From Diploptera punctata (lineage: Eukaryota; Arthropoda; Insecta; Blattodea; Blaberidae), in NCBI GenBank assembly GCA_030220185.1, contig JASPKZ010004568.1, positions 377,501-441,500 on the forward strand: a stretch of 64,000 nucleotides of DNA, given 5' to 3'. Position 1 is the first letter of the stretch, and every line of letters begins with the position of its first letter. The position numbers and the translations under genes were made by a program. Positions 7,086-59,297 of this stretch are shown piece after piece. The notes under the pieces were generated by a model that saw only the letters and a program-made list of their open reading frames with translations, had not been told where the DNA came from and searched no databases.

Positions 7086-7946
7086 TTAATCAAATGTTAG
7101 TCTATTTTTTTCCAACTCTTCACTGGTAATCTCTTGCAGTTTCATTTATATTTGGAGAAAATCTGAGTAAAAGAATGAGAACACAATTATATATGATATC
7201 GATAAAAGAAACAATTGCTCAATAACAATTATTATAGTTTCATCTCCTCGTTATCAATTGGAATGGCGATCCATTCTTGTCATTCTAGTGGCTATACCTC
7301 ATTTTTCTAGATTAATAGAATTAGTTTACATAGCATTCAACATATAATTGATGTCCTCAACTCGACATATAACAATTTATACTTCCATTATGGTAGATTC
7401 AGAATTAATTTATTCCATTATCTACATTTTATTTCGATGTGAATTTAGTAATTTATCCAAGGATAATTGATTCCAAATACTTAAAATTCTCTCTGTATAT
7501 GTGACAATTGTACCATTATCTTTCTAAATAACCTTTCTTGAATTAGATAACCTGTTTACATGTGTCGTGATTATGTTTTTTCTTGTTCTACTATTCGAGT
7601 GGTATATTTTAGCATTCTGAAAATAGTTTTATTTATTACTATTTTTCCCACAGTTTCACTCATAATATCCGTAACATTTTTAATATTTCCATTTGATAAT
7701 TTGTAACCAAAACAATTTAATTCGTTAATACTGCGAAATCCTGATCAAACTAAAAAAAAAAGTATTTAGTTTTAAAATCTTATAATTTCTCTTAATATTG
7801 GGGTGGACGTTACGTTCTCTGAGAGTGCCGGTACACTCACACGAACAATGTCGCACTGACTATAGAGAACAGTTAAGTACAAACCAGTTCAGTGCTGTGT
7901 ATTTGAAAATGCATATCCTGTAGTACAGGTGACTGATCAGACTTCA
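7086..7946. other. Spacer up to the 98 bp satellite
   Basis: AT-rich until about 7797, then more GC-balanced. The last 150 bases before the array are unique in this window. No gene seen. Confidence 0.4.
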
Positions 7947-10207
7947 TACCGTCTATGTGACCAAGTGAGGGACAGGAAACTGTACACAAAGAGAGGCGCG
8001 ATCCCACTGAGTATCTACACCCGGGCCTAACCTAATCATTTTCATCCCGTCTATGTGACCAAGTGAGGGACAGGAAACTGTACACAAAGAGAGGCGCGAT
8101 CCCACTGAGTATCTACACCCGAGCCTAACCTAATCATTTTCATACCGTCTATGTGACCAAGTGAGGGACAGGAAACTGTACACAAAGAGAGGCGCGATCC
8201 CACTGAGTATCTACACCCGGGCCTAACCTAATCATTTTCATACCGTCTATGTGACCAAGTGAGGGACAGGAAACTGTACACAAAGAGAGGCGCGATCCCA
8301 CTGAGTATCTACACCCGAGCCTAACCTAATCATTTTCATACCGTCTATGTGACCAAGTGAGGGACAGGAAACTGTACACAAAGAGAGGCGCGATCCCACT
8401 GAGTATCTACACCCGAGCCTAACCTAATCATTTTCATACCGTCTATGTGACCAAGTGAGGGACAGGAAACTGTACACAAAGAGAGGCGCGATCCCACTGA
8501 GTATCTACACCCGAGCCTAACCTAATCATTTTCATACCCGTCTATGTGACCAAGTGAGGGACAGGAAACTGTACACAAAGAGAGGCGCGATCCCACTGAG
8601 TATCTACACCCGAGCCTAACCCTAATCATTTTCATACCGTCTATGTGACCAAGTGAGGGACAGGAAACTGTACACAAAGAGAGGCGCGATCCCACTGAGT
8701 ATCTACACCCGGGCCTAACCTAATCATTTTTCATACCGTCTATGTGACCAAGTGAGGGACAGGAAACTGTACACAAAGAGAGGCGCGATCCCACTGAGTA
8801 TCTACAACCCGCGCCTAACCTAATCATTTTCATCCCGTCTATGTGACCAAGTGAGGGACAGGAAACTGTACACAAAGAGAGGCGCGATCCCACTGAGTAT
8901 CTACACCCGAGCCTAACCTATCATTTTCATACCGTCTATGTGACCAAGTGAGGGACAGGAAACTGTACACAAAGAGAGGCGCGATCCCACTGAGTATCTA
9001 CACCGGGCCTAACCTAATCATTTTCATCCCGTCTATGTGACCAAGTGAGGGACAGGAAACTGTACACAAAGAGAGGCGCGATCCCACTGAGTATCTACAC
9101 ACCGGCCTAACCTAATCATTTTCATACCGTCTATGGGACCAAGTGAGGGACAGGAAACTGTACACAAAGAGAGGCGCGATCCCACTGAGTATCTACACCC
9201 GGGCCTAACCTAATCATTTTCATACCGTCTATGTGACCAAGTGAGGACAGGAAACTGTACACAAAGAGAGGCGCGATCCCACTGAGTATCTACACCCGAG
9301 CCTAACCTAATCATTTTCATACCGTCTATGTGACCAAGTGAGGGACAGGAAACTGTACACAAAGAGAGGCGCGATCCCACTGAGTATCTACACCCGAGCC
9401 TAACCTAATCATTTTCATACCGTCTATGTGACCAAGTGAGGACAGGAAAACTGTACACAAAGAGAGGCGCGATCCCACTGAGTATCTACACACCCGGGCC
9501 TAACCTAATCATTTTCATCCCGTCTATGTGACCAAGTGAGGGACAGGAAAACTGTACACAAAGAGAGGCGCGATCCCACTGAGTATCTACACCCGGGCCC
9601 TAACCTAATCATTTTCAGCATACCGTCTATGTGACCAAGGTGGAGGGCAGGAAACTGTACACAAAGAGAGGCCGATCCCACTGAGTATCTACACCGGGCC
9701 TAACCTAATCATTTTCATCCCGTCGATGTGACCAAGTGAGGACAGGAAACTGTACACAAAGAGAGGCGCGATCCCACTGAGTATCTACACCCGAGCCTAA
9801 CCTAATCATTTTCATACCGTCTATGTGACCAAGTGAGGGACAGGAAACTGTACACAAAGAGAGGCGCGATCCCACTGAGTATCTACACCCGAGCCTAACC
9901 TAATCATTTTCATACCGTCTATGTGACCAAGTGAGGGACAGGAAACTGTACACAAAGAGAGGCGCGATCCCACTGAGTATCTACACCCGAGCCTAACCTA
10001 ATCATTTTCATACCGTCTATGTGACCCAAGTGAGGGACAGGAAACGTGTACACCAAAGAGAGCGCGATCCCACTGAGTATCTACACCCGAGCCTAACCTA
10101 ATCATTTTCATACCGTCTATGTGACCAAGTGAGGGACAGGAAACTGTACACAAAGAGAGGCGCGATCCCACTGAGTATCTACACCCGAGCCTAACCTAAT
10201 CATTTTC
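7947..10207 (+). repeat. Satellite array: 23 copies of a 98 bp unit
   Basis: The unit begins TACCGTCTATGTGACCAAG and ends CCTAACCTAATCATTTTCA. I count 23 unit starts, from 7947 to about 10109. The unit is much more GC-rich than its surroundings. Two subtypes alternate: ...CCCGAGCC... and ...CCCGGGCC..., the latter often followed by CATCCCG instead of CATACCG. Copies 1-6, 20, 21 and 23 are clean, while copies 7-19 and 22 carry many one- or two-base indels. Each unit contains CCTAACCTAA, two insect-telomere-like pentamers. No long open frame. Confidence 0.97.
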
Positions 10208-13268: not shown

Positions 13269-13771
13269 TAATTACGCTGAAACACTTTAGGGACTGATTC
13301 CTGACTGGAAATGAAGGGGAAAATTTCCTATAAACATGTGTCCAGAAAAGAACGCTGTGCGTGCAAACACAACAAATCATCCCGGCACACAGTACATAGC
13401 ATAATCGCATCCACATCTCAACTGATGTTCAACGTGGCCTCCATGTGATGCAATGCACGCGTTCACACATCATATCATGGATTGTTCGCATGTTCTGGCC
13501 TCTCTACGAGTAGCGTCACAGGCGACGTGGACACGCTGTTGAAGGGTATGTATATCAGGAACTGGCTCAAGAAACACAACACTTTTCAGATGCCCCTAGA
13601 GGTAACAATCCAGGGGGTGTAAATCCGATGATCTAGCAGACCATGCAACAGGGTCGAGAGAATAATGTCATTCGTCAGTGGTAACGATGCATTTATGAAC
13701 ACTTATTCATAGGACATTTTTTCCTCCATTTACAGTCAGGAATCAGTGCCTGCAGTTTGTCGGTGTAATTA
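13269..13771 (-). mobile_element. Deleted mariner-like element with ~75 bp TIRs
   Basis: The left end (13269-13340) and right end (13695-13771) are inverted copies sharing TAATTAC, ACTGATTCCTGACTG and AAAATTTCCTAT-like blocks in the same order. Between them only the C-terminal part of a transposase remains (13420-13700, minus). The element is about 500 bp, far shorter than a full mariner/Tc1 element, so it is internally deleted. Confidence 0.75.
13420..13700 (-). pseudogene. Transposase C-terminal relic (IS630-Tc1-mariner type)
   Basis: The minus-strand translation gives, across small frame breaks, RSSDLHPLDCYLWGHLKS, then LQQRVHVACD, then VNACIASHGGHVEHQL. The SPDL-PLD-LWG motif carries the last catalytic Asp region of mariner-like transposases, and GGH.EH at the very end is a common C-terminus in one insect lineage of them. 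The catalytic N-terminal two thirds are missing. A related but longer transposase lies at 39454-40474. Confidence 0.7.
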
Positions 13772-25302: not shown

Positions 25303-25460
25303 AGTGTTCGGAAACACTCATTAAAAACTTATATGGCTTGTAAAGGGGACTAAGCAGATAAGGTTCTGAAAGGGACTTTTGTCTAGAAATCTACTGTTTT
25401 CGCACTGCAAGTACAGTCATTTCGAATTGAACGTTTGAATATCTCGCGTCTGCCGAGCAT

Positions 25461-28371
25461 AAATAAATAGTAATTTAACGATTTATGACTCAATTCTCTA
25501 CAAGGCAATATATTTAATAAATAAAAATATCAAAGTTTTATTTACTAAGTACATAATATATTATCATCAAGTAAATATAAAATCAATTGATTATACAATT
25601 AATTATATTAGTTATAAATAAATAGTAATTTAACGATTTATGACTCAATTCTCTACTAGGCTATATATTTAATAAATAAAAATATCAAAGTTTTATTTAT
25701 TAAGTACATAATATATTATCATCAAGTAAATATAAAATCAATTGATTATACAATTAATTATATTAGTTATAAATAGTAATTTAACGATTTATGACTCAAT
25801 TCTCTACTAGGCTATATATTTAATAAATAAAAATATCAAAGTTTTATTTATTAAGTACATAATATATTATCATCAAGTAAATATAAAATCAATTGATTAT
25901 ACAATTAATTATATTAGTTATAAATAGTAATTTAACGATTTATGACTCAATTCTCTACTAGGCTATATATTTAATAAATAAAAATATCAAAGTTTTATTT
26001 ATTAAGTACATAATATATTATCATCAAGTAAATATAAAATCAATTGATTATACAATTAATTATATTAGTTATAAATAAATAGTAATTTAACGATTTATGA
26101 CTCAATTCTCTACTAGGCTATATATTTAATAAATAAAAATATCAAAGTTTTATTTATTAAGTACATAATATATTATCATCAAGTAAATATAAAATCAATT
26201 GATTATACAATTAATTATATTAGTTATAAATAAATAGTAATTTAACGATTTATGACTCAATTCTCTACTAGGCTATATATTTAATAAATAAAAATATCAA
26301 AGTTTTATTTATTAAGTACATAATATATTATCATCAAGTAAATATAAAATCAATTGATTATACAATTAATTATATTAGTTATAATAAATAGTAATTTAAC
26401 GATTTATGACTCAATTCTCTACTAGGCTATATATTTAATAAATAAAAATATCAAAGTTTTATTTATTAAGTACATAATATATTATCATCAAGTAAATATA
26501 AAATCAATTGATTATACAATTAATTATATTAGTTATAAATAGTAATTTAACGATTTATGACTCAATTCTCTACTAGGCTATATATTTAATAAATAAAAAT
26601 ATCAAAGTTTTATTTATTAAGTACATAATATATTATCATCAAGTAAATATAAAATCAATTGATTATACAATTAATTATATTAGTTATAAATAGTAATTTA
26701 ACGATTTATGACTCAATTCTCTACTAGGCTATATATTTAATAAATAAAAATATCAAAGTTTTATTTATTAAGTACATAATATATTATCATCAAGTAAATA
26801 TAAAATCAATTGATTATACAATTAATTATATTAGTTATAAATAGTAATTTAACGATTTATGACTCAATTCTCTACTAGGCTGCTATATATTTAATAAATA
26901 AAAATATCAAAGTTTTATTTATTAAGTACATAATATATTATCATCAAGTAAATATAAAATCAATTGATTATACAATTAATTATATTAGTTATAAATAAAT
27001 AGTAATTTAACGATTTATGACTCAATTCTCTACTAGGCTATATATTTAATAAATAAAAATATCAAAGTTTTATTTATTAAGTACATAATATATTATCATC
27101 AAGTAAATATAAAATCAATTGATTATACAATTAATTATATTAGTTATAAATAAATAGTAATTTAACGATTTATGACTCAATTCTCTACTAGGCTATATAT
27201 TTAATAAATAAAAATATCAAAGTTTTATTTATTAAGTACATAATATATTATCATCAAGTAAATATAAAATCAATTGATTATACAATTAATTATATTAGTT
27301 ATAAATAAATAATAATTTAACGATTTATGACTCAATTCTCTACTAGGCTATATATTTAATAAATAAAAATATCAAAGTTTTATTTATTAAGTACATAATA
27401 TATTATCATCAAGTAAATATAAAATCAATTGATTATACAATTAATTATATTAGTTATAAATAAATAGTAATTTAACGATTTATGACTCAATTCTCTACTA
27501 GGCTATATATTTAATAAATAAAAATATCAAAGTTTTATTTATTAAGTACATAATATATTATCATCAAGTAAATATAAAATCAATTGATTATACAATTAAT
27601 TATATTAGTTATAAATAAATAGTAATTTAACGATTTATGACTCAATTCTCTACTAGGCTATATATTTAATAAATAAAAATATCAAAGTTTTATTTATTAA
27701 GTACATAATATATTATCATCAAGTAAATATAAAATCAATTGATTATACAATTAATTATATTAGTTATAAATAGTAATTTAACGATTTATGACTCAATTCT
27801 CTACTAGGCTATATATTTAATAAATAAGAATATCAAAGTTTTATTTATTAAGTACATAATATATTATCATCAAGTAAATATAAAATCAATTGATTATACA
27901 ATTAATTATATTAGTTATAAATAATGTAATTTAACGATTTATGACTCAATTCTCTACTAGGCTATATATTGAATAAATAAAAATATCAAAGTTTTATTCA
28001 TTAAGTACATAATATATTATCATCAAGTAAATATAAAATCAATTGATTATACAATTAATTATATTAGTTATAAATAAATAGTAATTTAACGATTTATGAC
28101 TCAATTCTCTACTAGGCTATATATTTAATAAATAAAAATATCAAAGTTTTATTTATTAAGTACATAATATATTATCATCAAGTAAATATAAAATCAATTG
28201 ATTATACAATTAATTATATTAGTTATAAATAGTAATTTAACGATTTATGACTCAATTCTCTACTAGGCTATATATTTAATAAACAAAAATATCAAAGTTT
28301 TATTTATTAAGTTCATAATATATTATCATCAAGTAAATATAAAATCAAATGATTATACAATTAATTATATT
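25461..28371 (+). repeat. AT-rich satellite: 19 copies of a 151/155 bp unit
   Basis: The unit starts AGTAATTTAACGATTTATGA and contains CTCTACTAGGCTATATATTT and ATCAATTGATTATACAATTA. I place 19 starts, from 25469 to 28231. Units are almost identical except for one or two AAAT tetramers at the junction, giving 151 or 155 bp, and rare single changes. The first copy is the most diverged and fuses with the left inverted repeat; the last few copies are also slightly diverged. No long frame. Confidence 0.97.

Positions 28372-37110: not shown

Positions 37111-37147
<37 letters not shown>
37111..37147. repeat. (AAT)n microsatellite at a LINE tail
   Basis: An uninterrupted run of ATA/AAT units abutting the LINE tail at 37148. 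Confidence 0.9.
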
Positions 37148-37152
<5 letters not shown>

Positions 37153-37383
37153 CTTACTCACTGGCACTATCGAACCCGTAGGTTCATGGCCGCACGGACA
37201 TAAGCTCTCCATACATCCCTATCCTGAGCTAATGCTTTCCAATCATTCCCTGTATAATCTACTTCCCTTAAATCATAGTTAATGTTATTCTCCCACCTCA
37301 TTCTTGGTCTACCAACTGGGCGTTTTCCCTCTGGCTTTCCTACAAGAAGCTTCCATGCAAGTCTTTCATTCCCCATATGTTCA
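37148..37383 (-). pseudogene. 5'-truncated LINE 3' end, best-preserved C-terminus
   Basis: The minus frame 37376-37167 reads MGNERLAWKLLVGKPEGKRP, then VGRPRMRWENNINYDLREVD and YTGNDWKALAQDRDVWRAYV. It ends RAAMNLRVR and then continues through GGTTCGATAGTGCCAGTGAG into (TAAG)n. This is the last ~70 residues of a non-LTR retrotransposon ORF2, the post-RT region. There is no EN or RT, so it is a dead-on-arrival insertion. It is flanked on both sides by AAT microsatellites, suggesting insertion into or generation of simple repeats. Confidence 0.85.
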
Positions 37384-37392
37384 ACATCGCAG

Positions 37393-38974: not shown

Positions 38975-39295
38975 GGCGATTTTTCCAGTTATGTTATATG
39001 AATGCGAAACATTGTCAAAACTATTGCGACCATTTGAGAAGACAGTGTCCAGAGACATATTAAGGCCAACCCGACACGAACATACAGACGAATGGACAAA
39101 ATTACATAACAAGTGAACTGTACTATTTTAATGGGAAGCCAAATGTAATAAGAACAGTTAAGTCTCGTAGACTGCGATAGCAAGAATATTTGGCAAGAAT
39201 GGGCAATCAAAGATTCACATGGAAACTTGTAGGAAAATCAGTCTAGTAGACAGGCCAAGAATGAGGTGGGAGAATAGCGTGATTTGAGAATTTTA
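38975..39295 (+). pseudogene. LINE C-terminal fragment
   Basis: Broken plus-strand frames read YECETLS, LRRQCPETY, VKSRRLR, LARMGNQRFTWKLV and RPRMRWE-like remnants. It is the same family as 37148-37383 but starts further 5' and stops short of the tail. It ends abruptly against the minus-strand RT piece at 39296, so the junction is a later rearrangement or insertion boundary. Confidence 0.7.
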
Positions 39296-39335
39296 ATCAT
39301 TCTGGCATTCAGAACTGCGTCATCAGCATAACGTA
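39296..39335 (-). pseudogene. RT fragment with YADD box, downstream half of a split LINE
   Basis: Minus strand RYADDAVLNARMIKI. RYADD is the catalytic box of reverse transcriptase. The upstream half of the same RT is at 45229-45525; the two halves rejoin in frame if the mariner-like element between them and one TA are removed. Confidence 0.75.
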
Positions 39336-39453
39336 CCACCGTGTCCTCAAATGTAGTATCATAATTTAAACTACCACTACGTCGCTTTGAATAACCGCAT
39401 CTAAATGAAATTGGTGACAATCAAAAGAAAAACTCAAACCTTTTTGTTATACC

Positions 39454-40474
39454 TCATAGACATTGAATGTGGCCGCCACGAGTGACACTGCAAAGAACGA
39501 GGCGATATTCCCATTCACGCCACAAACGCTGCAACATAGGTGAAGAAATTGACTGGATGGCAGCAATAAAACGAAGCTGGACTACATGCAGGTTTTGAGG
39601 CAACGGGGGTACATATACACGATCCTTTATGTAACCCCATAGAAAGAAGTCACAGACCGTCAAGTCAGGTGACCTAGGCGGCCGCTTGCACAAAATATCA
39701 TCATATCCGGCACGTCCAATCCATCTTCCTGGAAGCCGGTCATTGAGATGCTCCCGAACATGCAAATGCCAAAGAGGAGGTGCTCCATCTTGCTGGAAAA
39801 TATATTCATTGTCTTCTTCTTGTTCCAATTGTGGAAATAACCATTCAGTGAGCATATCAATATAATTTGCACCGTTTGCCTGTAGAAAGAAAATGAGCCA
39901 CATACTTTACGTTTCGATACGACACAAGTGACATTCACTTTAGGGGAGTCTCTTTCAACTTCCTCAATGGTGTTTGGATGCTCACTCCCTCAAATCGTAA
40001 TATTATGCCAGTTCACTTTTCCACTAACGTGGAAAGTTGCCTCATCACTGAAAATTATTTTTTCTGGCAGTTCCTGTTTATCCTCCATTAGTGCCATGAA
40101 ATGTTCAGAGAAATCTAATTGTTTTGCATGGACATCAGATGTCAACTAGTGAACTATTTGGAGTTTGCAGGAGTGGAACTTCAGTCATGTACGTGGGATC
40201 TTAGATACGGTGGATTTAGGTATGTTTAATTGTTGACTATCTCTATGGACAGACATCTTAGGACTACGCACAAATGCCTCCCGCATTTGATACACAATTC
40301 TTGCATAGACAGATGGTCTCCCTGAATGACCTTTCCTTTGAATGCATATGCAGCCACGATCCACAAAATCACGGTACAACTCGAAGACTGACTTTTGTGT
40401 AGGAGCCTGACATTGTAACCTTCGCCTAAAAGTACGCTGGACCAGCACCGGACGCTGCGTGGTGTGAGTGTCAT
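39454..40474 (-). pseudogene. Transposase, main part (IS630-Tc1-mariner, insect lineage)
   Basis: From the LINE junction it reads DTHTTQRPVLVQRTFRRR, APTQKSVFELYRDF and GHSGRPSV: the helix-turn-helix N-terminal domain with the GRP motif. After several frame breaks in the middle (40185-39910) it continues FQQDGAPPLWHLHVREHL, RPPRSPDLTVCDFFLWG and YIKDRVYVPPLP, ending WEYRLVLCSVTRGGHIQCL. DGAPP and SPDL-CD-FLWG hold the second and third catalytic Asp positions. An insertion near GYDDILCK stretches their spacing. The N-terminal 14 residues lie beyond the LINE at 44893-44939. Inactive. Confidence 0.85.
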
Positions 40475-40605
40475 GGCGGATTGTGAATAAGAGTGAAACT
40501 GGTTGCTCGTGTTTTTGCACAATTTTCAGCAGGTGTTAGTTTGTTTTTATAAACGTAATATCGATATTGCGAATTTATTTTGTTTGTAGCTTAATTTTAC
40601 GTATA

Positions 40606-41262
40606 ATGGCTCCACGTAAAACAAGAAATTGTGAAGAAAGCAAAGAAGAAATAACTAAGCGTGTGGTCCAAGAATGTTTGCGGGATCCAGCCATGTTGCA
40701 GCTGTTGAAGGACTCCGTGCGTGAGGCTATTGTATCGGAGCTAAAGGTAACTATAGACCGTAATACGGAAGTTATTAGGCAGTTGGAACTCTCGCTTCAG
40801 GAGAGGGACAACAAAATATTAAAACTGGAACAACAGTTAAGTGAGAAAACCGACTCGCTAGAGCAATACCAACGTCGACAGTGTCTACGTATTTTCGGTA
40901 TACCTGAACAGGATGGTGAAGATACGGACAATATAGCAATCGACGTGGCCTCCAAAATTGGAGTTAAATTAGAAACCTGTGATATCGACAGGAGTCACAG
41001 GGTTGGGAAAAAGTCGGATCGACACGGCCTGTTATTGTTAAGTTCATCAGTTATAGAAAGAGAAGGGAGGTCTTCCAAAATAAAAAACAATTGAAAGGCA
41101 GTGGGATCACAGTAAGAGAAGATCTCACCCAAATTAGATGTAAATTGTTAAAGGACTGCATCACAAAATTTGGCGTCACAAATGGGTGGACAATTGATGG
41201 CGCAATACATGTGAAAAATGGAGATACCAAACGCATCATCACCCGGGCCTCTGATATGTAAA
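40606..41262 (+). CDS. LINE ORF1 protein (coiled coil plus RRM-like), one frameshift
   Basis: Translation is best started at the ATG at 40606 (MAPRKTRNCEESKEEI) rather than the earlier non-ATG start at 40567. Residues ~45-105 form a heptad-rich coiled coil (QLELSLQERDNKILKLEQQL). They are followed by an RRM-like section (QRRQCLRIFGIPEQ, DIDRSHRVG) typical of L1/CR1-type ORF1 RNA-binding chaperones. The frame breaks at about 41025 and the plain reading ends at 41094. The adjacent frame carries the expected continuation (RPVIVKF, GITVREDL, TNGWTIDGAI) to TAA at about 41262. One lost base explains it, either a real mutation or a sequencing slip. Confidence 0.75.
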
Positions 41263-41489
41263 TCTACCTAGTGCAAACACGCCCAGTGATACCATATCCC
41301 CAATTTAGCACTTTTATATAAATTATTAAAATTATATTTAGAAATTTCACATTAATTATTAGTATTATATTTAGAAATTTTACTTTATTTATTAATTTAA
41401 TATTTGAATAAGATATTAGTGACTTGTTCTTTTCTTATAATTCTAGTTAAAATATTTTTAAAATTTTCCATCCAAATAATGCTATTCAT

Positions 41490-44384
41490 TTGGCGGTCTC
41501 TGACAGGTTAGAGGACACTACCCTTCTCAAACCCCTTCCAAACAACAATAATGCAAGACAGGTTCTAGAAACAGCATTCTCCCCCTTCCCGTCTTCCCTA
41601 CATGTGGTTCACTTGAACGCACAAAGCTTAACTGCACATGCAGACGAAATTAGTATGATTTTTTCTTCTTCCAATATTCATGCTATTCTCGTATCAGAAA
41701 CATGGCTCACTCCCTCCATTAATTCTAGTTTAATTGACATGGATGGTTATACTTTTCTTAGACATGATCGTGTACATAGTCGAGGGGGCGGTGTTGGTGT
41801 CTTCGTTAGGACAGACCTTTGCCCTAAGTCTGTATACTTTTCTAATAACGAGACATCTCCTGAAATTATGTTTATAGAAATATACGCAAGCTTCCAAAAA
41901 TGCCTTCTTTGTGTAGTGTACCAACCCCCTAAAATGAAAAAAATAGCAGAAATAGAATCCGCTCTACAAAACGCACGTATACAATATGAACACGTTATCG
42001 TCATGGGTGACTTTAATATAAATATACTAGACACTGACAACAGACATACACAACAGCTTATGTCCGCGTTCCAAGTTTGTGATATGACTATCCTTCCCTT
42101 ACAGCCTACACATCACACCAATCATTCTGAGACTTTACTTGACTTAATTGCTACTAATAATCCAGACAGAGTACTAACCCACGGGCAACTGTCAGCTCCC
42201 GGAATATCAGCACATGATATTATATTTTTAGCATATTCACTGCAGTGCCCTAAACTAGCTCGTAAGACTATCACATATAGAGACCTAAAACATATAAACA
42301 ATGCAGCTCTACTTGAAGACGCTATAAAATTACCCTGGCATACTATATGGACGTTGCATTCTGTTGACGAAAAAGTTGAGGCATTAAATAACCTTATATT
42401 ACAACTATATGACAGACACGCTCCACTGAAAACTAAACTAGTGAAACGACACCCTGCTAACATTCGTGACTTGATGACTGAAAGAGACGCAGCATATCGG
42501 AAATATAGACTCGACAAAACTGATATAAATCTTAATCACTATAAACGGTTACGAAACAAGACTACACAAACTATCAGAAACGCCAAACTTAGACATCTAT
42601 ACAGCCTTACTGAACCTAATAACAATAACCCAGATATTTGGAAAAATCTGAATAAAATGGGTGTAGGAAGGAAAGACACACAGGTAGAAAAACTACCTGT
42701 TTCTCTGAACACACTTAATAACCATTTTACAAGCACATTCTTTACTCCTAAAGACAAAACACATACAACAAGTGAACTACTATTGACAAATCCATCAGAC
42801 AGAGAACATTTCCATTTTTCATATCTTACAGAAAATGACATAAAGAAAGCTCTCAAACGAATAAAAACAAAAGCAGAAGGTACTGACCGTATAAATATCA
42901 CTCTACTTAACAAAATAATCGACGTTATACTACCTACCATAACTCATGTTTTCAACTCCTCACTACAAACCTCTATATATCCCACATTATGGAAGCAAGC
43001 AATTGTACGCCCACTCCCGAAAGTAAAAACTCCCTTAACTCCTAACGATTTTCGACCCATTAGTATTTTACCTACCCTTTCAAAAGCTTTGGAACGATTA
43101 GTCCACAAACAACTGACTGACTACCTAACTGAACACGACCTTTTAGATCAATACCAATCAGGCTTTAGGACAGGACACAATACAAATACTGCTCTACTAA
43201 ATATATGTGAAGACATACGCGAAGCATCTCATAATCGAAAACTTACTATTCTTACACTACTTGACTTTAGTAAAGCATTTGACACGGTAGACTTGGACTT
43301 ATTGTTGCTTAAACTAAAAAACCTCTCACTTTCTGACAGTGTCACGCAATGGTTCAACTCCTACCTTCGTGAGCGCCAGCAATATGTTGTAGGAAATTCT
43401 ACATTACGCTCTTCTTGGACCTACCGTAAAGCTGGAGTTCCACAGGGCTCGGTGCTCGGCCCATTGCTTTTTTCAATCTATATAAACGACATATCTGACT
43501 CCCTAAAACATTGCAAACATCATTTATTTGCGGACGACATGCAGATCTACCTTCACTCAGACAAATATTCTTTAAATGACGCGGTAACCAAAATTAACGA
43601 GGACCTTGACTCGCTAACGGCGTGGACAGAGAAATATGGACTTGAATTAAATCCTAGAAAGACACAAGCAATCATTATGGGCCATCAGAGACTATTATCC
43701 TCAATTAACACAAATGCAGTATTACATGTGTCACTTAATGGGGTTCAGATCCCTTATAGTGAGACAGTAAAAAATCTAGGAGTGTTTATGGATAAACATT
43801 TAATTTGGAATAAACAAATAAATAACATTTGCAAAACTATCTTCTCAATAATACACTCATTAAATCGTATAAGAAATTGTTTACCGTTTTCTCTAAGAAA
43901 AATGCTAGTACAAACACTTGCAATGCCCCATTTTGATTATTGTGATACTCTTTTTACTGACCTAAATACTGTTCTTACCCAAAGACTTCAACGTGTTCAC
44001 AATTCTTGCATACGTTTTATTTGTGGTATACGTAGATTTGATCACGTTACACCATACCTGGAACAATTGTCATGGCTTCGTCTTCAAGATCGTAGAACCA
44101 TCCATTCCCTATGCCTACTCTATAACATATTACACACATCTTTACCTTATTATTTATCACACCCGCTTCACTAAACTCTCTGATACACATAACTTAGATA
44201 CCCGATCCCTTGGGCACAGTGTCCTTTATATCCCTCCTCATCATACTACCTATTATTCGAAATCTTTTACAGTTTCTCTTGCTAGAACATGGAATTCACT
44301 TCCACCCTATGTCAGAGACTGCCAAACTTTACCATCTTTCAGAAATAAATTGAAAATAAAATCACTAACAGAAACAACTCACTA
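41490..44384 (+). CDS. LINE ORF2: AP endonuclease and reverse transcriptase
   Basis: This makes and inserts the cDNA copy of the element. The uninterrupted frame spans 894 codons to 44174 and opens at a TTG; no in-frame ATG lies near it, so the true start or any reinitiation is uncertain. Endonuclease: HLNAQSL (~40), SETWL (~70), RGGGVGVFVR, MGDFNINI (~172) and SAHDIIF (~250). RT: TLLDFSKAFDTVD, GVPQGSVLGPLLFSIY and FADDMQIY (~680). The C-terminal domain continues after a frameshift near 44150-44170 in the next frame (RFTKLSDTHNLDTRSLGHS, ARTWNSLPPYVRD) to TAA at 44384. All catalytic boxes look intact, so only two single-base shifts (one here, one in ORF1) separate the element from full coding capacity. 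Confidence 0.9.
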
Positions 44385-44649
44385 ATACTACTTTTTAAGA
44401 ATTAATAATGCGTTTTTGCATTATTTAATAAAAATAGACTTAGGATTTGTTAATATATTTACCTAATGCCTTGTATAAAAAGCGTAGATTAATTCATTGT
44501 AGTGTTTTTTTTCTCTTCTTTTTATGCATAGTAGATTCGAGCTGTTATTCCTTTTTTATTCATTGTATCATTAATTTAATTTTAATTGTATTTAGTTTCA
44601 TTCTATTATTAGACATTAATTTCATTATTATTCAATATGACAGATAATG

Positions 44650-44826
44650 AATTGTTCAATAACTATTATTGTAACTTTTTTTTGTATTCATATGTAACAT
44701 GTTTGTCCTGTCTAATATGACTACTATTGTAATTTTTTTGTATTCATGTGTAACATATGTTTGTCCTGTTTTATATGACTATTATTGTATTTTTTTTGTA
44801 TTCATATGTAACATATGCTTGTTCTG
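44650..44826 (+). repeat. Three ~58 bp tandem repeats in the LINE 3' UTR
   Basis: Each contains CTATTATTGTA (or one variant), a T-run, TGTATTCATATGTAACAT and GTTTGTCCTGT. Copy number in such UTR repeats often varies between elements. Confidence 0.85.
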
Positions 44827-44892
44827 GTGAGTGGAAGAGAAGGCCACATGGCCTTAACTCCACCAGGCTAAATAAATAAATCTAAAAATAAA

Positions 44893-44939
44893 TCTAAATA
44901 TTCCAAAACACACCAACTACGTTCCTGTGGGTTTGCCAT
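44893..44939 (-). pseudogene. Transposase N-terminus, cut off by the LINE
   Basis: Minus strand from ATG at 44939: MANPQERSWCVLEY, then the LINE tail. The next residues of the transposase (DTHTTQRPV) resume at 40474 on the other side of the LINE. Joining GAATAT to GACACTCAC keeps the frame, which fixes the LINE insertion point to within a few bases. Confidence 0.85.
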
Positions 44940-45228
44940 AACTCGTTAAAACTTCATAACTTCTTTAATAACACAATTTTGAAACACAGCAAATATTCAC
45001 ATTTAACCTGTTTCCTAAATATCCAATAAAGAATCCATGTCGTCTACAAAAAAACATTATTAAGTTTAGTTTAGTTTCTGTATTGATATCCATCTTTCTC
45101 CATTGTTGACGTCATTAACATGCACAAAACGTTTTGAATTTCTCTTTTGATTGTCAACAATTTCATTTAGATCCAAAGCGACGTAATACTAGTTTAAAGT
45201 ATGATACTATATTTATGGACACGGTGTA

Positions 45229-45525
45229 TATTCAAATGTTTATTTCCCATTTGGCAACCTGGCAGGCACCTTACTTCATGTATAATTGTATCCATTATAC
45301 GATTAAACAATAAAGGATTTAGAGAACTTCCTTGTTTCATTCCTTTGTCACACTTAATTCCTTCCGTAAGTTTCTCATTTATAGAAATCTTTGATTCAGT
45401 ATTTGTATTTACATCCTATATCAAATTTATTACTGTGCTTGAAATTTCTTTCTCTTGCAAGATTCCTACTATCTCTTATAATTTGGCTCTATCAAAACTT
45501 TTGTAAAATCTATAAAACATAAAAA
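45229..45525 (-). pseudogene. RT fragment, upstream half of the LINE split by the mariner-like element
   Basis: Minus strand: FYKSFDRAKL (palm motif, like DF.KAFDR), then two stops, then KLTEGIKCDKGMKQGSSLNP, LLFNRIMDTIIHEVRCLPG and MGNKHLNI, directly before the mariner end. It continues as RYADD at 39335. It is 5'-truncated and already carried stops, though when those arose relative to the mariner is unknown. Confidence 0.85.
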
Positions 45526-45534
45526 AACAGGTGT

Positions 45535-48500
45535 TTGTGCCTCTCCAGGTCCGATTCATCATGGATTCCGTTGTGAAGAGTTCTTCGTAGATGTCCTCCC
45601 TTTTCTTTGTCCTCTCGACTAGTACCTCCTTTCAGCTGGGAGTGGACGGCAGGTCAAACCTCGGTCTAAGGTTTTCTATCAAGAAAGTATCTTGGGCGAG
45701 CATGTACACCAACTAGGAGAGAATGTGTTGAGACATTTATAGTGTGGCTTTCAGAAAGCGAGTATTGACGTTCTCTAGAGTATGGAGGTCTTTCTTGTGG
45801 AGTTTGTCCCATGTTAGGTCTGGACCACAAGTAAGTATGGGGACTATCTTGTCATCAAAATTATCATAACAGATTTTAGGGATTGCTTAGTTATTTCTCT
45901 GATGTCACGTATGGCCTTTGTGACCTTTATTGCTCTTTGTTTACTGTATATTCTGAATGACTTTATTTTTGTGTGTAGGTCAAACCGTAGTATTTGACAT
46001 CGTTAACAGTTTGTGGCAGTTCTTCTATTAGGAATATTTAATGTTCCGCGGGTATTTTCCCACTTTTTCTAAAAATAATATGTTCATTCTTCTCATCATT
46101 TACCTGCAGTTCTTGTTCGTCAGCCCATTATTCCAGTACACACATTGCTTCTTGGAGGCTTCTTCTATCATGAGATCGCATGGTCATGTCGTCGGCATAA
46201 ATATAGAATTTTAGTTCTGCCGATTTTTTCTTATTGTCTGTACGACGTCATGGCTTGCGATGTAAAATAGTGTTGGGCTGAGAGGATCCCCCCGTAAGAC
46301 TCCATTTGTCTGCGTGAAGATAATTGCCGTTGTTATGTTGTCTGAGATCTGAACATTGTTACTTCTCAGGATATTTTCAATCAGGCTTGTGACATCTTCG
46401 TTTATCACGGCAATAGATTTTAGTTTTGAGGAAATGATGATCCTGTTCAATTTATCAAAAGCTTCGAGAATTCAATGAAAACAGCCTGGAATTTTTCCTT
46501 GGGGTGCCGTATGGCGGCCTCAATATCTTCAATGAGTTTTCTGATTCCTTGTATTGTATTTCTCGCCTTTCTGAACCCGAATTGTTCCTCGGATACGTTA
46601 TGATCTACCTCTTCTGTGATCCTTTGTGTGATAAGCGTTGTGAGAATATTTAGGTGGTTGTTTTCTAGAGCTATCCCTCGATAAGAGTTAGGGACATGGC
46701 GGTCCCCCTTGCCTTAGTATAATATCTTAATTGTTGATATTTTCTATGATGTTGGGATGTTGACCTGTTGTAAGGCATACTTTTAGCAGATCTGTTAGGG
46801 CTGGGACCAGTATTTCAGCTGATGCTTTGATGTGTTCGTTGATAACACCGTCCAATCAAAATGCTTTCCTGTTTTTGAGTTTTGATAACGTGCTCCATAA
46901 TTCTTCTTGTGTGAAAGGTTGGATGGAATTATTTAACCCTATCTGCTTTATTGGGTATGCTTCAATGGATCTTTTCTGGTTTAGGAGGTCTGTGAAATAC
47001 GTATTCTTCCTAAATATACATGTCTATTTTGATAGTTGTTTGAGTTTTCGCGACTTCAGTGCTCTGTACAGGATTTCCCTTGCATCTTCTACCATCTTGG
47101 CTGCTCCCGACTCGATGTAGTTATTTCGGGTATTTCTAAGGAGGGTTTTATACTGCTTACTGATAGCGCTGTAATGTGATTAGGTTTTCAGGAGAATCGC
47201 TGGCTCTTGCCTTATGTAGTGCTTGACTGACCCGTTTCCTCTCTAAGTAGCACGTTTTGTCGAACTACTTTTGAGATTTCCGTTTCATTATTGGGAGTTT
47301 TGCACATTTAATAATGTCCTCCCTGATCTTGGCGGCATCGTTTATATCATCTTCTTTCTCTTCTCTTGCAGCTCCACTATTTTAGATTACTGTTGAGAGA
47401 GGGTAAGGAGGTTAGCATTATTGAACTGGGCTTAGGAATGGTTGACTTTTTGCGTGTGGAGTTTGCAGACTTATGTTGAAACTTGCTGTCACAGGAATGT
47501 ACTTTTTCAGGTGCGCCTCATTTATTGAGTAGTTTATTTTACAGTTCGTAAGATTGATTTCTGGACCAGTATAGAAAATTAGGTTATTGTGCTACTCCCA
47601 TTTTAAATGAGATACGTTTTGTTATTTTTATTGTTTATTAGCCTTAAGCCTTCTTCTGCCATCACTGCAGTAGTTCTCTGCTCCTGTTGTCGTTAACATC
47701 CATTCTGCAGATCACGTCTCCAGCTATGATGGTGTTGTGTCTAGTGATAGTCTTTGCGAAGGCTGTCACTATTGTGGCTATCATATCTTCGATCGGTGTG
47801 AGGGACTTTATGTATACTTATATTACTGTAAGTCTCTTGGTTTTAATTATTATGTAGTCTTGGTCTCTATCAGTTGCTAGTAATTTCACAATTTTTGGTT
47901 TATAATAGCATGCCAATCCTCGCATCGGTCTTCCGCTTGGTGCTTGAATAACGGGCATTTGTTGTGAGGAAAATTTCGGTATATATATGGTATTTACTAC
48001 GAAGATCTCGTTTAGGATCGAAATATTATACCTTTGTAGCTATTCGTTCGTTGTTAGATTGACAGCGTTTTTAAGTCCTCGACGTTCTACAGAAGTAGAT
48101 TAATTGTCTAGTATTACTCACTGCTCCGGGGGAAGCCGATATCGTAGTTTCATAGGTCTCTGAGCGATACTCACACTTTGAAAGCTTTTAGTGAGCCTCT
48201 CTTTTGAATTTCTTTACACTCTAGTATTTCTGTTACTTTTGATTTCTTCACATGGTTTATTAACTTCTCCTTGGACGTATTTTGGTGCAGTAACCAATAT
48301 ATAGTCATACTCTGTGTCAGGCTGCTTGCAGTTGATTTTAATTGTGATTGCTTCCGGAGTATGCTTGGTGCCTACGATTGTCGGGGTTTGGATGAGTAAT
48401 GTTTTGGGGTTCCGACACCTTCTTACGACATCTGTACATCTATCGTTCCTATTTTGTATTGCTGTGGTTGGTTGTTCTGCGCAGGGGTGGGCTTATTCTT

Positions 48501-54100: not shown

Positions 54101-54414
54101 CTTACTTACTTACTCACTGGCACTATCGAACCCGTAAGTTCATGGCCTCCGGACATAAGCTCTCCATGCATCCCTGTCCTGAGATAATGCTTTCCAATCA
54201 TTCCTGTATAATCTACTTCCCTCAAATCATAGTTAACGTTATTCTCCAAACTAATTCTTGGTCTACCAACTGGGCGTTTTCCCTCTGCCTTTCCTACAAT
54301 AAGCTTCCATACAAGTATTTCATTGCCCATACGCGCAACATGTCCTGCCCATCGCAGTCTACCAGACTTAACTGTTCTTATTATATCTGGCTTCCTATAA
54401 ATACCGTGTAAATT
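54101..54414 (-). pseudogene. 5'-truncated LINE 3' end with preserved empty site
   Basis: Minus strand: LHGIYRKPDIIRTVKSGRLR, WAGHVARMGNEILVWKLIVG, KAEGKRPVGRPRISLENN, VNYDLREVDYTG, a frame break, then GGTTCGATAGTGCCAGTGAG and (TAAG)n. It belongs to the same family as 37148-37383. The uninterrupted sequence survives at about 54740-54750 in the second tandem copy, so its ends can be placed to within about 4 bases; any target duplication is at most 3-4 bp (CAC or ACAC). Confidence 0.88.
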
Positions 54415-54764: not shown

Positions 54765-55055
54765 TCAGATTATAATATTATTATGATATCGTGAAAAGAA
54801 AAATTAATGTGTGAACCAGGAATAGAACCGTGGACTTCAAGTTCTCCAGACTAGTGTGCAGCCCACTACACCATTCCATACCTGGCAGCGGACGGAACGA
54901 GAATTATAGATTTGTATATGTGGAAAGATTTGTTGGTGTTTGTGCCAGGTGTGGAATGGTATAGTGGGCTGCACACTAGTCTGGAGAACTAGAGGTCCAC
55001 GGTCCGATTCTTGGTTGACACATTAATTTTTCTTTTCACAATATCATTATAATAT
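54765..55055. mobile_element. Inverted dimer of the tRNA-like element
   Basis: The left arm (54765-54893) is the minus-strand tRNA-like sequence and the right arm (54951-55050) is the plus-strand one. Arms share GTGCAGCCCACTA and its complement, CTCCAGACTAGTG and its complement, and the tail AAAAGAAAAATTAATGTG and its complement. The ~58-base middle is the body sequence of the unit at 54440-54620. A transcript would fold into a long hairpin with a tRNA-like moiety in each arm. Confidence 0.85.
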
Positions 55056-55060
55056 CATCC

Positions 55061-58977: not shown

Positions 58978-59023
58978 TAATTTGTCCACATGCTTACACC
59001 GACGAACTGCCGCAGAGTTAAGT

Positions 59024-59297
59024 CTCATAGACTGCGACGGGCAGGACATTTGGCACGAATGGGATATGGGATACGTGTATGGAAGCTTCTTGTAGGAAAA
59101 CCAGAAGGAAAACGCCCAGGTGGTTACCAAAACTGATGTGAGAGAATATGATTATCCATGATTTGAGGGAATCAGATTATACAGGGAATGATTGGAAAAC
59201 ATTAGCTGAGGATGGGGATGTATGGAGAACTTATGTTCGCGCAGCCGTGAACCTACGGATTCGATAGTGCCAGTGAGTTAGTTAGTTAGTTAGATAG
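59024..59297 (+). pseudogene. 5'-truncated LINE 3' end with (GTTA)n tail
   Basis: Plus strand: VKSHRLRRAGHLARMGYGIR, VWKLLVGKPEGKRP, a frame break, then LRESDYTGNDWKTLAEDGDV-like and WRTYVRAAVNLRIR. It ends GATTCGATAGTGCCAGTGAG and TTAG units. Same family as 37148-37383; the tail phase differs (GTTA versus GTAA). Confidence 0.85.

Follow-up and report, generated by a model that had tools for sequence, protein, structure and literature searches.

A LINE within a Tc1/mariner transposon within an older LINE relic: three nested transposable elements in Diploptera punctata

Three transposable elements are nested at positions 39296-45525 of the window, the whole stretch of 64,000 nucleotides of Diploptera punctata DNA that was analysed. 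A LINE (non-LTR retrotransposon) with endonuclease and reverse transcriptase (RT) domains lies inside the transposase gene of a Tc1/mariner-superfamily transposon, and the transposon lies inside the RT gene of an older LINE relic. The nest is real once its coordinates are corrected, and the earlier note that described it from the letters of the DNA is partly confirmed. Both nestings, of the LINE in the mariner element and of the mariner element in the older LINE, are supported, and none of the three layers is intact. The locus is a tidy, ordinary set of nested transposable elements with the following parts.

39115-39305, plus strand: tail of a different LINE family, which abuts the RT box and does not belong to the older LINE; right limit at about 39288-39305 (alignments to four copies)
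39306-39333, minus strand: left part of the older LINE relic, with the RT catalytic box RYADDAVLN; about 28 bp at least, perhaps 45 (translation of the join, profile)
39334-39335, no strand: TA target dinucleotide, left copy (sequence)
39336-39447, plus strand: left terminal inverted repeat (TIR), beginning at 39336/7, with one extra C beside the TA relative to the right end (alignment)
39336-45226, minus strand: Tc1/mariner-superfamily DNA transposon, LINE-interrupted, 1,460 bp when the LINE is left out (TIRs, transposase relatives, length)
39454-40466, minus strand: transposase, residue 15 to the stop codon (tblastn with the relative P0121; relatives of the C-terminal part)
40467-44897, plus strand: inner LINE of 4,431 bp, comprising a 5' leader, two ORFs (ORF1 and ORF2) and an A-rich tail (ends from P0121 tblastn)
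40606-41263, plus strand: inner LINE ORF1, two frames, one frameshift at about 41000-41090 (list of open reading frames)
41451-44388, plus strand: inner LINE ORF2, endonuclease and RT, one frameshift (Pfam domains, list of open reading frames)
44898-44939, minus strand: transposase residues 1-14, MANPQERSWCVLEY (P0121 tblastn)
45124-45226, minus strand: right TIR (alignment)
45227-45228, no strand: TA target dinucleotide, right copy (sequence)
45229-45537, minus strand: right part of the older LINE relic, an RT palm segment with MGNKHLNI at its end (RVT_1 profile, frames)

Two successive insertions followed by decay very probably account for this anatomy. A fragment of the old LINE would have sat on the minus strand when a Tc1/mariner transposon of the rosa DD41D group, or of one close to it, entered by a cut-and-paste mechanism at a TA within the RT gene, just before the YADD catalytic box; the TA would have been duplicated on insertion. 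A LINE with endonuclease and RT domains would later have entered the mariner transposase gene by target-primed reverse transcription, and all three elements would have decayed after insertion. From the element families we infer both the insertion mechanisms and the arrival of the LINE after this mariner copy was in place. Several findings count against this history: an unmatched C beside the left TA, an opposite-strand LINE next to the RT box, a search for a LINE target-site duplication that found none and, as set out below, decay that does not differ significantly between old LINE and mariner element, a search for old LINE relatives that found none, and a better profile score with one more residue at the outer join.

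A relative of the transposase places the inner join exactly. A query made from the transposase N-terminus, joined at the boundary proposed by the earlier note, returned three candidates, two of which are relatives (P0121 and P0122). P0121 is 69-70% identical to the joined N-terminus with the full query covered. Its residues 1-14 match 44939-44898 and its residues 15-163 match 40466-40020 in one frame by tblastn; the relative thus spans the join with no residue gained or lost, and the LINE splits the transposase between codons 14 and 15. Because these two segments abut at residues 14/15, the inner LINE is limited to 40467-44897, and the exact join, 40466/44898, reads MANPQERSWCVLEY-HTTQRPVLVQRTF. 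The excision first proposed, 40475-44892, had been said to restore a single frame. Taken literally it does not, giving MANPQERSWCVLEYLE and then a stop in one frame and DTHTTQRPV in another. The residues DT of that reading are absent from all three relatives that cover the join in the alignment (P0121, P0122 and P0109); the fifth alignment row, P0079, begins beyond the join and is uninformative on DT. The placement of a LINE within the mariner transposase is upheld, since P0121 aligns on both sides in the same frame, with the coordinates and the DT slightly off.

ORF2 of the inner LINE has a 907-aa open frame running to 44174 (plus strand), with its C-terminal end in another frame. The protein carries both RVT_1 (139.1 bits) and Exo_endo_phos (40.8 bits), each above its Pfam cut-off, and is matched by 8 distinct solved sequences, R2 retrotransposon proteins among them; ORF1 matches no Pfam family above its cut-off. 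The element presumably belongs near the CR1/L2 group. Like non-LTR retrotransposons with endonuclease and RT domains, it has two ORFs, the Exo_endo_phos and RVT_1 pair and a short A-rich 3' tail, but it differs in that both ORFs are frameshifted and that it yielded no target-site duplication, the longest word common to the regions near its two ends being the 5-mer AATAA. Such duplications are frequent in LINEs, not universal, and nothing was found in the literature that settles how often LINEs of this kind go without one. The element had been called nearly intact, a description contradicted by ORF1 and the end of ORF2, each of which is spread over two frames; the two frameshifts were counted from overlapping frames rather than from an alignment of the family.

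The mariner element is flanked by a TA on both sides and ends in TIRs with 91 of 103 aligned bases identical and 9 gap columns; their alignment scores 140, against at most 93 among 500 random pairs from the window. Its transposase contains three internal stops and one frameshift (at about 39870), and 40 residues separate the second and third catalytic D. The window pieces fall below every Pfam cut-off, whereas P0121 matches DUF4817 (helix-turn-helix) at 30.9 bits against a cut-off of 22.6. P0121 comes from a contig of 994 bp, and its last 11 residues match window positions 39482-39450 out of frame with the end of the transposase, as would be seen in an element of this kind that had lost an internal segment.

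For the C-terminal piece of the transposase there are 1,559 relatives; the genera named among the 120 listed include Periplaneta, Blattella, Cryptotermes, Araneus and Callosobruchus. The spacing pattern was readable in 82 of these 120 (38 gave no pattern match): the second and third D are 41 residues apart in 59, 40 apart in 4 and separated by other, uninspected distances in 19. The transposase would fall in or near the known rosa DD41D group. Two papers describe rosa DD41D and LTIR DD40-41D mariner-like elements in aphids and Ceratitis rosa (PMC5490172), and DD41D/VS elements in bees, among which DD40D variants are also reported (PMC8472432). If rosa and VS are one group, as we take them to be, DD40D is on record for the rosa/LTIR/VS group (PMC5490172, PMC8472432). 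The window element resembles the rosa/LTIR DD41D elements in its TA target and its transposase of about 350 codons, and at 1.46 kb it is near rosa's 1.3 kb (PMC5490172); its D spacing, 40 in the window copy and 41 in 59 of the 82 readable listed relatives, may fit them as well. It differs in its TIRs of 103-112 bp, which lie between the 28-32 bp of rosa and the approximately 460 bp of LTIR (PMC5490172).

Several other repeats occupy the window. A second, more decayed transposase scrap lies at 13425-13649 (minus strand), where P0004, P0027 and P0062 match at 32% identity (E of about 1e-6 to 1e-7). One tandem array, at 25459-28371, has a 155-bp unit in 19 copies with 98% matches, and GC is 0.151 at 26-28 kb; another, at 7943-10207, has a 98-bp unit in 23 copies with 96% matches and lies in the 2-kb step where the window's GC is highest (0.487). 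Positions 1-208, 676-1157 and 54772-55058 match their own reverse complement at 81-85%, and a predicted tRNA-Ser (54808-54881) sits within the last of these stretches. Comparisons with viral contigs gave 7 pattern matches for the inner LINE ORF2, 17 for P0121, 4 for the older LINE and 2 for the LINE tail, with 0 confirmed for each.

It follows from the nesting that the old LINE preceded the mariner element and that a mariner received the LINE, though not necessarily at this site. The assertion that sequence alone fixes the order of events is slightly too strong, because the LINE could have entered the mariner element before that copy moved here. Under such a history, a loaded 5.9-kb element would have moved in trans into the old LINE, leaving the same anatomy by a different order, and a cut-and-paste element would have been the vehicle for a copy-and-paste one, the 4.4-kb retrotransposon. 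The nesting geometry is compatible with this course of events, and the two TIRs and two TAs are what a complete element has. Mariner transposition falls with element length, however, and the transposase is more decayed than the LINE that it would have carried, with 4 of 350 codons disabled against 2 of 1198 (one-sided Fisher, p = 0.026). At E <= 1 the window offers no match to the transposase pieces beyond the pieces themselves, and thus no sign of a second composite. Prior loading elsewhere is accordingly given little credence, and entry of the LINE into the mariner copy already seated in the old LINE is preferred.

Decay rises with depth across the three layers. The old LINE has 3 of 111 codons disabled, namely two stop codons in its right part and a frameshift near 45500 read by eye (FIDFTK in one frame, SFDRAK in another). 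It is more decayed than the inner LINE by one-sided Fisher test (p = 0.005, or 0.038 when only its two stops are counted), but its difference from the transposase is not significant (p = 0.22; 0.44 with stops only).

The outer join also restores a reading frame. Excision of 39336-45228, the element plus one TA, yields QMGNKHLNIRYADDAVLNA in one minus-strand frame and brings MGNKHLNI to RYADDAVL, written GCQMGNKHLNIRYADDAVLNA at the join. The claim that removing the mariner element and one TA joins MGNKHLNI to RYADD in frame is therefore true for these limits; the excision first given, 39334-45229, is likewise in frame, but costs the I (HLN-RYADD). The RVT_1 score of the right flank alone is 29.0 bits and climbs to 37.0 with ten left residues and to 38.3 with 22, while controls (TIR read-through, the wrong frame and two scrambles) score 28.5-28.9 bits. 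A shorter right flank goes from 26.1 to 35.2 bits on joining. One extra residue at the join scores higher still, at 40.2 bits in a query that also begins one residue later, so a codon may be missing there. A protein search for relatives of the older LINE gave 19 candidates, none at E <= 0.001, which leaves profile and motif as the basis for the outer join. Both support an RT domain that runs continuously across the mariner element.

The motif is rare in the window. Counting both strands, 12 starts out of 127,940 read [YF]ADD within their first residues (four motif places times three offsets). Apart from the outer join, the places are all in RT stretches of LINEs, at 43.5, 46.2 and 61.2 kb. Relaxing the pattern to [YFLVC]ADD brings in two LADD places, 1576 and 34550, with no RT noted around either. 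To the right, the relic stops near 45540, next to a further decayed RT, also of a LINE and on the same strand; this second RT (45541-47400, minus strand) directly adjoins the relic.

The left mariner flank had been read as a continuation of the LINE. It contains only about 28-45 bp of RT, followed by the opposite-strand tail of another LINE that the earlier note missed. The tail at 39115-39305 aligns to copies at 2.0 kb (score 75), 37.2 kb (99), 54.1 kb (169) and 59.0 kb (119). A shuffle control, run for the 37-kb copy only, peaked at 79 over 300 shuffles; by that measure the 2-kb match does not rise above noise. Two of the alignments end at 39291 and 39288 and two run on to 39324 and 39330; with the tail limit placed at about 39288-39305, the old LINE keeps only the 28-45 bp on this side. 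The LINE 3' coding tail copies themselves lie at 2005-2238, 37147-37388, 54103-54373 and 59016-59290, as if short 3' pieces had inserted repeatedly, and the best of them reads from MGNERLAWKLLVGKPEGKRPVGRPRMRWENNI to AAMNLRVR (37170-37388, minus strand).

Since the tail comes so close to the TA and, for two of the four copies, the gapped alignment reaches into the RT box, RYADD could be a chance antisense reading of the adjacent LINE tail, in which case the mariner flanks were never one LINE. Beyond 39305, however, the tail extends no better than random window segments, of which 32, 95 and 150 out of 150 matched its extension for the three copies compared. RYADDAVL falls in frame where the RT needs it and adds 8 bits, and elsewhere in the window [YF]ADD occurs only in RT stretches. 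An accidental box is thus very improbable, and a plus-strand tail reaching the mariner element with the RT box as chance was rejected on the extension and motif results. Two other accounts of this flank were also rejected. Twin priming, by which tail and RT box would be one element whose 5' part is inverted, does not fit because the two pieces lie in the wrong order; the nearest minus-strand tail, 37170-37388, is a whole tail, so it supplies no missing remainder. Insertion of the old LINE into the tail LINE would call for a tail remainder near 45540, where none is present. The boundary between RT box and LINE tail is a rearrangement that stays unexplained, beside an older LINE whose interruption by the mariner element remains the favoured reading of the two flanks.

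Least credible of all is that the junctions are assembly chimeras and not insertions: the window is repeat-rich, but misassembly would not be expected to leave an inner join exact to the codon, an outer join in frame, TIRs that match and a TA at either end.

Transposable elements that interrupt other transposable elements are numerous in mammalian genomes, according to a genome-wide study of transposon interruption (PMC2517846). The present nest is alike in kind, an element within an element, but concerns one locus where that study spans genomes (PMC2517846). What the D. punctata locus offers is a clean local stratigraphy, with three element families and two insertion sites, one codon-exact and one in frame. 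It changes no general idea; its use lies in annotating the elements of this genome and calibrating their decay.
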